Origin: Jiangella aurantiaca
GTDB lineage: Bacteria; Actinomycetota; Actinomycetes; Jiangellales; Jiangellaceae
DNA: 64,000 nucleotides
Assembly: GCF_004349105.1 (NCBI RefSeq)
Contig: NZ_SMLB01000007.1
Span: 1 to 64,000, forward strand
Direction of reading: 5' to 3'
Positions 1,333 to 5,159 of this stretch are shown piece after piece; the stretch's first letter is position 1, and each line of letters begins with the position of its first letter. Under the pieces are notes generated by a model. The model ran no database searches. It was not told the origin of the DNA and saw only the letters and a program-made list of their open reading frames with translations. The position numbers were made by a program, and so were the translations under genes.

Positions 1333-1884
1333 GTGACAGACGCACCTCGGCCCACCGGCCAGGCGATCGGCCTGGCCGTCCCGATTCCCGAGCCCTACGG
1401 CAGCGAGCTGCAGGACTGGCGCCGCTCGTTCGGCGACCCGCTGGCCGACGCCATCCCGGCGCACATCACGCTGCTGCCGCCGACGGTCCTCACCGACGCC
1501 GACCGCGACGGCGTGTACGAGCACCTCGACAAGGTGGCTGCGCGGTTCGCGCCGTTCCGGGTGCACCTGCGCGGCACGGCGACGTTCCTGCCGGTGTCGC
1601 CGGTGGTGTTCGTAGCGCTCGCGCAGGGCATCTCGGCGTGCGAGCGGCTGTCCGAGGCCATTCGCACCGGGCCGCTCGAGGTCGAGCTGTCCTTCCCGTA
1701 CCACCCGCACGTCACCGTCGCCCATCACGTCTCCGAGGAGGCGATGGACAACGCCTTCGACACCCTGGCCGGCTACGACGCCGGTTTCGACGTCGCGGCG
1801 TTCAGCCTCTACGAGCACGGCGACGACGGCTACTGGCGGCGCGAGCGCGACTTCGTCCTGACGGGAGAGGCAGCGCGCGTGTGA
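1333..1884 (+). CDS. 2'-5' RNA ligase family protein (2H phosphoesterase)
   Basis: A 183-residue protein of the 2H phosphoesterase superfamily. Both catalytic H-x-T motifs are visible: H44-I-T46 in PAHITLLPP and H126-V-T128 in HPHVTVAHH. Such proteins hydrolyse or ligate 2'-5' or cyclic phosphodiester bonds in RNA or nucleotides; the cellular substrate in actinobacteria is not established. The GTG start at 1333 lies 4 nt after the trpS stop, and its stop overlaps the GTG of the next gene (GTGA), so it is probably co-translated with trpS and the YihY gene. Confidence 0.9.
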   Translation: MTDAPRPTGQAIGLAVPIPEPYGSELQDWRRSFGDPLADAIPAHITLLPPTVLTDADRDGVYEHLDKVAARFAPFRVHLRGTATFLPVSPVVFVALAQGISACERLSEAIRTGPLEVELSFPYHPHVTVAHHVSEEAMDNAFDTLAGYDAGFDVAAFSLYEHGDDGYWRRERDFVLTGEAARV

Positions 1885-2924
1885 TCGGCCGGCTCCGCGC
1901 GCTCTGGGACCGGCTGCAGCTGACGCTGCCACTGCGCGCGTGGAAGCGCTACAGCGACCTGCGCGGCAACCGGCTGGCCGGCGCGTCCAGCTTCTACGGG
2001 TTCGTGTCGCTGTTCCCGCTGCTCGTCCTGTCGGCAGCGATCGTGAGCGCCATCGCCGGTCCGTCCGGCGTCGACACGGTGCAGGACATCGTGAACGAGA
2101 ACCTGCCGGGCCTGGAGGTGGACGTGTCGACGTTCCACCGCAACGCGGGGACGGTTGGTGTGATCGGCGCCGTGGTCCTGCTCTTCACCGGCCTCGGCTG
2201 GGTCGACTCCGTCCGCGCCGCCGTCCGGTCCATGTGGGGCCTGGACGACCAGCCCGGCAACATCGCGGTCCGCAAGGGCCTCGACATCCTGTCGCTCGCC
2301 GGCCTCGGCGTGCTGATCCTGGTGTCGTCCGGCGCCAGCGTCGTGGTCATCTCGTTCGCCGGCGAGGTGCTCGACTGGCTCGGGTTCGGCAGCGGCGGCT
2401 GGATGCTCCGGGTGGTCAGCGGCCTGGTGTCGGTGGGCGCCAGCACGGCGCTGTTCGCGTATCTGCTGTCCGGGCTGCCGCGCATCGTGGTGCCGGTGCG
2501 GATCCTCGCGGTCGTGTCGCTGTTGAGCGCTGTCGTGTTCGAGGTCCTCAAGCAGTTCCTGGTGCAGTACGTCGCGGGCACGGCGACGCAGAACTCGTAC
2601 GCGGCGTTCGCCACGCCGCTGGCCATGCTCGCGTGGATCTACCTGGTGACCCGGCTGCTCATGGTCGCCGCAGCGGTCACCGCCGAGAGCGCCATCGACG
2701 AGCTCGAGGCGGCCGAACGCGCCGAGGCGGCCGGGCCGCTGCAGTCGCAGACCCGTGGTGAAGAGCCGGCTGGTGCCGGGACCGCGGTGCTGTCCCCGGG
2801 CCAGATCCGCGCGACCGAGGTCGCCGCCGGCGCTGTGCTCGGCGCGGCGGGCCTCGGTCTGGCGCTGCTCGCGGCCCGCGCCGCGCGCACCGTCCGCTCC
2901 GCGTTCCGCCGCTCGTCGTACTGA
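1881..2924 (+). CDS. YihY/virulence factor BrkB family membrane protein
   Basis: A 347-residue integral membrane protein of the YihY/BrkB family (once wrongly called RNase BN). The family hallmark near the N-terminus is present (NRLAGASSFYGFVSLFPLL), followed by about six hydrophobic segments and a conserved NSYAAFATPLAMLAWIYL region near residue 235. The C-terminal ~80 residues are a polar, Ala/Glu-rich tail with one more hydrophobic stretch. The function of the family is unknown. The GTG start at 1881 overlaps the preceding stop by 4 nt, which decides the start even though the frame stays open further upstream. Confidence 0.92.
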   Translation: MIGRLRALWDRLQLTLPLRAWKRYSDLRGNRLAGASSFYGFVSLFPLLVLSAAIVSAIAGPSGVDTVQDIVNENLPGLEVDVSTFHRNAGTVGVIGAVVLLFTGLGWVDSVRAAVRSMWGLDDQPGNIAVRKGLDILSLAGLGVLILVSSGASVVVISFAGEVLDWLGFGSGGWMLRVVSGLVSVGASTALFAYLLSGLPRIVVPVRILAVVSLLSAVVFEVLKQFLVQYVAGTATQNSYAAFATPLAMLAWIYLVTRLLMVAAAVTAESAIDELEAAERAEAAGPLQSQTRGEEPAGAGTAVLSPGQIRATEVAAGAVLGAAGLGLALLAARAARTVRSAFRRSSY

Positions 2925-2987
2925 CCCACGGCGCCTGATCATTCCGGCCCCAGCGATGGGCGTGGGGCTAGGCGTCTCCACGGTTCG

Positions 2988-3005
2988 CCAGGCATGCATG
3001 CCTGG
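2988..3005. repeat. 18-bp perfect palindrome
   Basis: CCAGGCATGCATGCCTGG is its own reverse complement. It lies about 65 nt after the YihY stop, outside any gene. It could be a protein-binding site or an RNA hairpin; there is no downstream T-run, so it is not a classical terminator. Confidence 0.6.
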
Positions 3006-3137
3006 TAGAGCGGGAACACCCCTACTTGACGTGATCACTTCCGGCTCTTCTGCTCGTCCGTGGGTGGTGAGCGGCCGGGGGTCGGTCGGCACGGCCGGCC
3101 GCGCGCTCGGGCGACCGTGGCCGGCGGTATGGCGTTC

Positions 3138-3270
3138 GCCGTCCCCCTGCTGCCCCATTCTCTTGCCGCGACCGCGCGCCTCAAGCGGACTTTTGGGGCG
3201 CTTCGCGCGGCGATGACCGCTTGACCCGCACGCCCGCGGCCAAGAACGGGCAGCGATCAGGGGGACGGGG
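3138..3270 (+). repeat. Long palindromic intergenic repeat, copy A (~133 bp)
   Basis: The left end GTCCCCCTGCTGCCC (3141-3155) and right end GGGCAGCGATCAGGGGGAC (3248-3266) are inverted copies of each other, and the pairing continues inward through TTCT-CTTG/CAAGAA and CTCAAGCGG/CCGCTTGAC. The arms total about 45-50 bp each around an apex of about 35 nt. The whole unit is homologous, in opposite orientation, to the copy at 3529-3678. It contains no convincing coding sequence. It looks like a non-autonomous palindromic element (MITE- or REP-like) or a structured RNA; I do not recognise a named family. Confidence 0.7.
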
Positions 3271-3528
3271 CGAGTCTGGGCACACCTCAGTGTGGGCAGC
3301 TGTGCTCTCGGTCCGCCGAGGGCGCTGGGCGTGGTTTGGTGTGGCGTTGGTGCTGGTGGACAGCGGTGATCATCAACGATCGTGGACATCACCAGGATTA
3401 CCCGAGCCTCAACACGCCTGCAATCGTGTTGGTGCACCAGAAGACCTCATGATGGCCCCCGAAACGCCGGCAGATCTCACCACGTGGACACCGGCGAACG
3501 GTGCACCGGCGGGCTGTGCCCGCTCTTC
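3271..3528. other. Spacer between palindromic repeats, no gene seen
   Basis: About 260 nt between the two palindromic copies. Open frames here lack conserved-looking protein sequence and natural ribosome sites. A small inverted repeat GGTGAT...ATCACC lies near 3364-3393. I see nothing else that can be supported. Confidence 0.4.
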
Positions 3529-3678
3529 CCCCGTCCCCCTGATAGCTGCCCGTTCTTCGGCCGCGTGCGCGCGGGTCAAGTCCACGGCCTCCAACCAGCC
3601 ACGAAGCGCACCCAGCAGAGGCCGCGGACTTGAGGCGCGGGTGCGCGGCCAAGACAATCGGGCAGCAGGGGGACGGCC
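3529..3678 (-). repeat. Long palindromic intergenic repeat, copy B (~150 bp)
   Basis: The inverted homologue of 3138-3270. Left arm CCGTCCCCCTGATAGCTGCC and right arm GGGCAGCAGGGGGACGG pair, and pairing runs inward to GTCAAGTCCaCGGCCTC (left) and GAGGCCGcGGACTTGAG (right), leaving a ~26-nt apex. Arms are about 60 bp with few mismatches, so single-stranded DNA or RNA would fold into one long hairpin. Compensating length differences between copies A and B (ATAG or CGAT inserts beside CTGCCC) suggest that the hairpin shape is conserved. Confidence 0.7.
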
Positions 3679-3803
3679 AACCTACGAGCCCAGGCGAACG
3701 TGTCACGCGTCCAGCGGGAGGCGACCGCCGGGAACACGGCCGCGTCACCGACGAAACCGCGCCGGCACGTCCCCAACACCCGCGACGCCCTGACCGTCGT
3801 CAT

Positions 3804-3827
3804 CCACCCTGGCGGCTCACAGGGTGG
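3804..3827. other. Small hairpin (7-bp stem)
   Basis: CCACCCT (3804-3810) and AGGGTGG (3821-3827) form a 7-bp stem with a 10-nt loop. It sits about 110 nt downstream of the carboxypeptidase stop on the opposite strand and could end that transcript, but there is no U-tract on either side. Confidence 0.35.
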
Positions 3828-3867
3828 GAAGGACCCACGGATCGGGTCGGAGAGCCTCATTTCCATG

Positions 3868-3885
3868 GGCAGCAGGGGGACGGCG
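3868..3885 (-). repeat. Solo terminal remnant of the palindromic repeat
   Basis: GGGCAGCAGGGGGACGGC here is identical to the outer end of copy B (3660-3677). No matching opposite arm is present nearby, so this is a half-element or decayed third copy, about 50 nt from the end of the carboxypeptidase gene. Confidence 0.6.
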
Positions 3886-3935
3886 GACGTCCGTCCGGCC
3901 CACGGACCGAGCAGACCGACTGGCCAGGCTCCGCC

Positions 3936-5159
3936 TCACCTGGACGAGTAGCGGCCGGACGACTTCGGGCGGCGCCGGCGCAGGGCGAAGCCGACCCCAC
4001 CGGCGAGCGCCGCCGCGGCGAGGCTGAGCCAGACCACCGGGGGCACGTCGTCGGAGCTGCCGCCGGGGCTGCTCAGGGCGTCGCCGTAGTCGTCGAGTGG
4101 GTTGCGGCCGAGGATGTCGCCCTCGTCGGAAGCGTCGGTGACCATCGCCTCGACCTCGTCGGGCGCCACGAGGTGACCGACCGGCTGGGTCTCCGGCGCG
4201 GCGAACGCCCAGTCGAAGAGTGCGGCGGCGGCGTCCTCGGCGCGCCCCTCGGAGCCGAGGATCGTCGCGATGAGGGTCCGGCCGTCGCGCTCGACCGCGC
4301 CGACGAAGGTGTGGCCGGCGAGCGTGGTGAACCCGGTCTTGAGGCCGATGGTGCCTTCGTAGGAGCCGAGTAGCCGGTTCTGGTTCTGGATCTGGAACGT
4401 CGCGCCGTCGGTGCCAGGGAAGTCGTAGACCGCGGCGGCGGCCAGCCGGGCGATGGTCTCGTCGTCGAGGGCCTCCCGGCCGATCAGCGCGAGGTCGTAG
4501 GCCGACGACAGCTGGCCGGGGGAGTCCAGGCCGTGCGGCGTGACCGCCTTGGTGTCGAACGCGCCGAGCCGGCGGGCCTCGTCGTTCATCTTGTCGACGG
4601 TGGCGTCCTGGCCGCCGGCCGCTTCGGCGATGGCGTGCGCGGCGTCGTTGCCGGACGCGAGGATCAGGCCGTGCAACAGCTGGTCGACGGTGTAGGTCTG
4701 GGCGGCGACGATGCCGACGCGGCTGCCCTCGACCGACGCGTCCTCCTCGGTGGCGACGTAGGTCTCGTCGGGGTCCAGCGCGGCGCCGGTGGCCAGTGCC
4801 GTCAGCAGCTTGATCGTGCTGGCCGGCGGACGGCGCTCGTGCGGGCTGTACGCGGCCAGCACGTCGCCGGTCTCGGCGTCGGCGACCAGCCAGGCCTGTG
4901 CGTCGACGGCGGGCAGCGGCGGCGCCGACGGCGACACCAGCGGCACCCCGGTGGCGGCCAGGTCGTCGCCGCCGACGATCTCGTCGACGGGGGAGTCGGC
5001 CGGCGGCGCGAGGACGGTAGGCGACGGCGTGGCCGACCCGGTGCCGGCGGGCGTCTCGGCGTGGGCCGGCGGCAGCGTGGCGGATCCCAGCACGACGAAC
5101 GCCGCCACCGGCACGATCCAGGCGCGGTGGCTGCGGCGGGAGCGCAGTGCGGAGCCCAT
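3936..5159 (-). CDS. D-alanyl-D-alanine carboxypeptidase (serine peptidase S11, low-molecular-weight PBP)
   Basis: A 407-residue penicillin-binding protein that removes terminal D-Ala from peptidoglycan stem peptides outside the membrane. Catalytic motifs are visible: S114-T-I-K117 (SxxK), S169-G-N171 (SxN) and K274-T-G (KTG). An N-terminal signal segment (residues ~13-35, ending PPAHA) and a C-terminal hydrophobic anchor followed by a basic RRRR tail give the usual topology. The ATG at 5159 places a typical basic MGSALRSRRSHR before the signal core; the frame is open upstream to 5219 but that extension is unlikely. A Pro/Ser-rich linker (residues ~38-85) precedes the catalytic domain. Confidence 0.93.
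   Translation of the reverse strand: MGSALRSRRSHRAWIVPVAAFVVLGSATLPPAHAETPAGTGSATPSPTVLAPPADSPVDEIVGGDDLAATGVPLVSPSAPPLPAVDAQAWLVADAETGDVLAAYSPHERRPPASTIKLLTALATGAALDPDETYVATEEDASVEGSRVGIVAAQTYTVDQLLHGLILASGNDAAHAIAEAAGGQDATVDKMNDEARRLGAFDTKAVTPHGLDSPGQLSSAYDLALIGREALDDETIARLAAAAVYDFPGTDGATFQIQNQNRLLGSYEGTIGLKTGFTTLAGHTFVGAVERDGRTLIATILGSEGRAEDAAAALFDWAFAAPETQPVGHLVAPDEVEAMVTDASDEGDILGRNPLDDYGDALSSPGGSSDDVPPVVWLSLAAAALAGGVGFALRRRRPKSSGRYSSR

Follow-up and report, generated by a model that had tools for sequence, protein, structure and literature searches.

A palindromic composite of about 500 bases, lying where two genes of Jiangella aurantiaca converge, is probably a non-autonomous mobile element of the genus Jiangella that would be moved by an enzyme acting in trans. 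It was found in a window of 64,000 nucleotides (the whole stretch of J. aurantiaca DNA that was analyzed) and consists of a left hairpin (H1), a central palindrome (core C), and an inverted right hairpin (H1'), in that order, with outer repeats on both sides. H1 occupies 3141–3266 on the plus strand, has the outer end GTCCCCCTGCTGCCC and the inner end GGGCAGCGATCAGGGGGAC, and scores 140.3 bits with a model of the hairpin; the inner flank that follows it, GGGGCGAGTCTGGGCACACCTC (3267–3288, plus strand), is conserved after many copies. H1' (3533–3674, minus strand) is 142 nt long, has a longer inner helix, and scores 107 bits, and its inner flank reads GGGGGAAGAGCGGGCACA on the minus strand (3515–3532). 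Core C (3360–3479, plus strand; stem 3386–3454), which the initial annotation overlooked, is decayed here but conserved elsewhere, and its consensus has long complementary arms. The outer zones R, at 3095–3140 to the left of H1 (plus strand) and 3675–3700 to the right of H1' (minus strand), have approximate limits set by inspection; the left zone holds degenerate units of ~20 nt resembling GTTGGCCGGGGNTTGC, and units of ~20 nt like GTTGGCCGGGG recur, again by inspection, outside H1 toward gene ends. The left flanking gene (1881–2924, plus strand) encodes a BrkB-type membrane protein (PF03631, E = 2.8e-37) and the right flanking gene (3936–5159, minus strand) a D-alanyl-D-alanine carboxypeptidase (PF00768, E = 6.7e-47), and both end toward the element.

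The initial annotation had described 3138–3270 and 3529–3678 as inverted homologs, each able to fold into a hairpin, and had recorded a lone outer end near 3868–3885. A repeat search bore out the inverted homology, aligning 3134–3165 with 3650–3681 (91%), 3220–3241 with 3559–3580 (91%), and 3242–3284 with 3515–3557 (86%), and it recovered the lone end, a remnant on the minus strand, at 3867–3889, which matches the outer end of H1 (3133–3155) at 96%; 3867–3893 is also a direct repeat of 3660–3686 (85%). Folded as single-stranded DNA, H1 has a predicted energy of −41.8 kcal/mol (z = −4.5) and H1' one of −53.7 kcal/mol (z = −7.25), and none of 200 shuffles was equally stable in either case; the decayed core gives z = −1.77. 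Across copies, the hairpins have the ends GTCCCC...GGGGAC and lengths of 114–143 nt. Beside the remnant lies another outer repeat, M (3784–3866, plus strand), which also adjoins some other copies near gene ends.

Copies of the hairpin are dispersed through the J. aurantiaca genome. BLAST with H1 gave 56 matches at E ≤ 0.001 (best non-self match, 5e-66), which is more than the number of copies because both strands of a single palindrome may be matched. Among 41 places examined, comprising 40 that were fetched and the window, 40 hold hairpin or core pieces, and 28 near-full hairpins were found at 23 places; two near-full hairpins are present at only 5 of the 41, the window included, indicating that most places hold shortened or decayed forms. 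With at most one mismatch, the outer end occurs 54 times in the J. aurantiaca genome, 81 times in the complete genome G008, and 69 times in the complete genome G001, as compared with 3, 4, and 7 occurrences of a reversed-pattern control. The covariance search that had been proposed in the initial annotation, run with a model of 27 copies on both strands with at most 150 candidates scored per genome, gave 62 matches in J. aurantiaca, 42 to 150 in nine other Jiangella genomes, one in Jiangella gansuensis (G003), and none in G006. By BLAST, H1 has matches in 11 of the 12 genus genomes, and J. rhizosphaerae contains at least 74 distinct full-length H1 sequences. When 84,980 species, each represented by one genome, were scanned for the pattern, at least 106 stretches were returned, and the 80 loci listed belong to five Jiangella species; 5 of 48 non-Jiangella genomes gave one BLAST match each, of 26–55 bases (E = 8.5e-6 to 8.9e-4). 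A phage or plasmid origin was rejected, as viral contigs gave no exact-pattern matches and plasmids and phages no BLAST matches. A known RNA family was likewise rejected, as Rfam gave nothing at gathering level in eight loci; within 2900–4000 of the window, one sub-threshold match to a plant microRNA was returned (26.6 bits against 90). No paper on such repeats in Jiangella was found in the open-access literature, and in the portion of text on Jiangella from PMC5292007 the string "palindrom" refers to CRISPR.

Differences between copies preserve the pairing of the arms, as the initial annotation had claimed. The clearest case, seen among 27 copies, is an internal helix that switches between AAGCGG/CCGCTT and AAGTCCGC/GCGGACTT. 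In 139 H1 copies from six species, 11 of 38 pairs occur with at least two Watson-Crick types; this set was drawn from the best 150 of 257 matches in relatives and 60 matches in the genome itself, after exclusion of sequences shorter than 110 nt, longer than 150 nt, lacking recognizable ends, or identical to one another. All 139 copies have a C·C or C·T mismatch at columns 39/87, and the adjacent columns 40/86 are C·C in 121 of them. Simple arm-to-arm correction would remove the mismatch at 39/87. That the copies retain both the pairing and the fixed mismatch suggests that the folded form is under selection, rather than that one arm is merely copied from the other.

Orthologous sites are filled in some species and empty in others. 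At the window site, the flanking genes abut or overlap without the element in 7 of 11 relatives (G001, G004, G005, G008, G009, G010, and G011); G002 has a short piece there, in which a palindrome resembling the core is reversed, J. gansuensis has a different palindrome, and the site falls at contig ends in G006 and G007. When the joined flanks of seven J. rhizosphaerae elements were searched across the genus, six sites had at least one compact empty orthologue, and an empty orthologue of the seventh was suggested by coordinates only. With one genome compared per species, the difference at some sites may stem from loss of a copy instead of gain. Only 2 of 31 J. rhizosphaerae sites match one of 39 J. 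aurantiaca sites. In the J. aurantiaca genome, a pair also occupies the site at locus L125, and the site at L175 matches a core piece that lies outside the 39 sites.

For 120 of 139 H1 copies, the nearest neighbor is a copy from the same species (shuffles: mean 47.7, maximum 66), a clustering that is biased by the selection of copies for their resemblance to the window or to an exact pattern. Most of these cases come from J. rhizosphaerae, with 72 of 74 copies, and from J. ureilytica, with 17 of 18, and a copy from J. aurantiaca has a same-species neighbor in only 15 of 27 cases. Mean identity is 0.793 both within J. rhizosphaerae and between J. rhizosphaerae and J. aurantiaca. Taken with the filled and empty sites, this would fit repeated lineage-wise spread with retention of old copies.

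All copies sit in gaps between predicted genes and show a marked preference for junctions at which genes converge. In J. aurantiaca, 20 copies are at convergent, 17 at tandem, and 2 at divergent junctions (n = 39), as compared with 23, 139, and 48 among the 210 remaining junctions of these loci (convergent, 20/39 versus 23/210; odds 8.6, p = 6e-8). In other species, 22 of 25 pairs could be classified, as 10 convergent, 9 tandem, and 3 divergent, as compared with 12, 96, and 21 among 129 background junctions (10/22 versus 12/129; odds 8.1, p = 1e-4); divergent sites are not depleted in these species. Gene orientations were taken from a simple codon-bias gene finder. The bias may reflect target choice or selection against other insertions.

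A structured RNA, the third option named in the initial annotation, may also be considered as a candidate reading beside mobile DNA. If the composite were a functional 3'-end element, each hairpin would end or stabilize the incoming transcript, and the whole would act as a two-way terminator or RNA stabilizer for convergent genes. The convergent bias and the compensatory changes are in keeping with such a role, as are the short distance from gene end to hairpin (median 34 nt at ten convergent sites of other species) and the J. rhizosphaerae flanks, which are G/T-rich toward the hairpin. However, a scan of 2900–4000 for terminators of the T-run type found none, the orthologous gene pairs of 7 of 11 relatives do without the element, tandem (17/39) and divergent (2/39) sites occur, and 19 of the 20 long copies of G008 and G001 have insertion sequences inside them. 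Wobble pairs over the 38 positions of the modeled strand number 100 G·T against 169 A·C, counts that partly reflect alignment register and that indicate neither which molecule nor which strand folds; they give no support to an RNA of the modeled strand, and an RNA of the opposite strand would be compatible with them. We regard a 3'-end function as unlikely.

A role in chromosome structure is somewhat less probable still. The composite would then be a cruciform or a protein-binding site, for example for gyrase or a nucleoid protein, selected at many places. Positive supercoils meet at convergent junctions, where the copies are concentrated, and selection for such a site would account for unpaired bases that are conserved and pairing that is kept in most cells. 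Against this, few sites are common to species (the 2 of 31 above), and the H1 model has no match in G006 and one in J. gansuensis.

For the non-autonomous mobile element that we favor, we infer gain by transposition. The form recognized would be the hairpin, probably in single-stranded DNA or extruded from the duplex, and a trans-acting enzyme would copy or paste the unit into new sites; copies would survive best at convergent gene ends, since an insertion there disrupts no promoter. The dispersed copies, the filled and empty sites, the convergent bias, and the compensatory changes with their conserved mismatch speak for this reading, whereas the uneven species clustering, the small share of places with two near-full hairpins, and the failure to find a clear target duplication or a mover speak against it. 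A mover of the RAYT/IS200 type, which the initial annotation had suggested seeking, was rejected for the PF01797 family: Y1_Tnp/RAYT was found in none of the 12 Jiangella genomes, some of them multi-contig assemblies that may miss a gene, and in 5 of 14 control genomes. A group II intron or another retro-mechanism was rejected as well, since the RVT_1 reverse transcriptase domain is present in 1 of 12 genomes, the one without an H1 model match, and the eight loci searched gave no Rfam match at gathering level.

The element itself appears to carry no enzyme. No gene was predicted inside 25 H1–H1' pairs examined. In the complete genomes G008 and G001, 20 H1–H1' intervals (16 and 4, respectively) are 1.4–4.7 kb long; in 19 of these, nested insertion sequences supply transposase genes, whereas L322 contains other genes, and no element-borne enzyme gene was recognized in any of the 20. 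Pfam was run on 10 of 39 internal reading frames, all ten of which belong to transposase or integrase families (DDE_Tnp_1_4, DDE_Tnp_1, rve, Transposase_mut, and DEDD_Tnp_IS110), and the remaining frames were assigned by similarity to these ten. In the J. aurantiaca genome, no interval of 1.4–4.7 kb is present among those listed. An autonomous parent with the same ends was thus rejected as an account of the long intervals.

Target duplications, another point raised by the initial annotation, were sought in the flanks of 39 elements, after two duplicates had been dropped, and again in a set of 41 rows, and in neither did direct repeats show a clear excess over mismatched flanks; in the second set, flanking 5-mers matched in 41 of 41 rows, as compared with a control maximum of 40. 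Because the exact ends of the element are uncertain, short target duplications may still occur. At the L194 site of J. rhizosphaerae, comparison with empty sites in relatives reveals a possible target duplication of ~10 bp with one mismatch.

The initial annotation had considered the repeats to be MITE-like or REP-like. This was right in kind, as the copies are dispersed and site-polymorphic and the element works like a REPIN or a MITE, but the RAYT, the short stem, and the tag that mark a REPIN were not found. REPINs and BIMEs are, like the present element, extragenic inverted pairs of palindromes that reach high copy number, lie at the ends of convergent and tandem genes (compare the excerpted descriptions in PMC3116915 and PMC3733652), and host insertion sequences. 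The Jiangella hairpins are 114–143 nt long, as opposed to ~20–40 nt in REPINs, have a third palindrome between them, and end differently from the GTAG and CGTC tags; their stems are several times longer than the 5–13 bp given for GTAG REPs in the available part of PMC3733652. With PF01797 in 0 of 12 genomes and in 5 of 14 controls, membership of the REP superfamily and movement by a RAYT (Y1 HUH) transposase are highly improbable. The CGTC-tagged REPs, as portrayed in the same part of PMC3733652, resemble the Jiangella palindromes in often forming inverted pairs and in having no known dedicated transposase, and are set apart, by description, through stems of 8–9 bp and the CGTC tag. A local duplication without wider meaning, to which two copies and a remnant within 750 bases might point and which the initial annotation had expected if the genome held no further copies and relatives no conserved ones, can be dismissed, as BLASTN found many copies in both and pieces occur at 40 of 41 places in the genome and in many copies in most other Jiangella species.

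Bacterial MITEs, to which the Jiangella element may belong, share with it a short length (~500 bp in Jiangella), the lack of genes, inverted terminal parts, and dispersal. The Jiangella element differs in that each end is itself a full hairpin and in that it has neither a clear target duplication nor a parent insertion sequence found with the same ends. ERIC (PMC2267715) and RU (PMC2759123; units of 103–168 bp), compared by description from the portions of these papers at hand, are also intergenic repeats with secondary structure, but they have other hosts, and the Jiangella unit is a composite of three palindromes.

REPINs are tiny palindromes that persist for ages in bacterial genomes with the help of a transposase. 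The Jiangella element would be their far larger counterpart, with three palindromes, in a genus of actinobacteria where the known helper was not found. If the element moves, another enzyme must handle its long hairpins, and the species, whose model matches number between zero and considerably more than 100, offer a natural comparison for finding that enzyme.

The hairpins are themselves entered by insertion sequences. Nine breakpoints inside H1, at eight G008 loci (L306, L308, L309, L312, L314, L315, L317, and L319), were chosen because the breaks looked alike; the 3' part resumes at TAAG in 9 of 9, and the 5' part ends in YTAA in 7 of 9. One and the same spot of the hairpin is thus hit by insertion sequences of three or more kinds. 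Other nested insertion sequences lie in the core or elsewhere. As REPs are known targets of insertion sequences according to the available part of PMC1525189, H1 works like a REP in this respect. In a GC-rich genome, such palindromes would be places where an insertion sequence can land without doing harm.

The palindrome at the window site of J. gansuensis led to a second family, P2, of ~90-bp palindromes with the ends AAATGATCA...TGATCATTT (for example, L236:1380–1480 and loci L353–L391). P2 has 80 matches in this genome (both strands, 40 candidates scored), in which the H1 model has one. It is found at convergent junctions at 27 of 39 fetched sites, as compared with 9 of 91 other junctions. 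The P2 arms co-vary, and 15 of 25 copies have arms that agree exactly across 9 bases, as compared with 6 in shuffles. No clear flanking duplication was seen for 25 copies with recognizable ends, among which longer repeats are not in excess; adjacent 4-mers match in 6 of 25 (control mean 3.4, maximum 5), perhaps as a result of C/G-palindromic flanks. Homology between core C and P2 was not supported, as most P2 copies share with the core only short words such as TCACCAGG. Occupation of the same orthologous sites by P2 and H1 likewise found no clear support: 4 of 39 P2 sites match, one being the window site that led to P2, and by rough reckoning this overlap is not clearly above chance. It is conceivable, although we would put it forward only tentatively, that the giant hairpin elements form a genus-wide system that spreads without a Y1 transposase, a reverse transcriptase, or a detected duplication, in which a hairpin-recognizing enzyme would insert units at converging gene ends, and that this machinery would also have given rise to P2, independently of H1.

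To the left of the element in the window, a palindrome at 2936–3046 (no strand assigned) resembles J. gansuensis P2 by eye only; it is absent among the P2 BLAST matches listed and folds weakly (z = −1.49). A stretch related to the outer repeat M trails a P2 palindrome in L359. In J. rhizosphaerae, a tandem 20-bp unit, GTCCCCCTGCTGCGTTGGCC, adjoins the element end at L156:4116–4235, as if the end had been iterated, and in J. ureilytica (L163:4530–4754 and L191:4713–4836), H1 outer ends are arranged in tandem with a spacing of ~102 bp.
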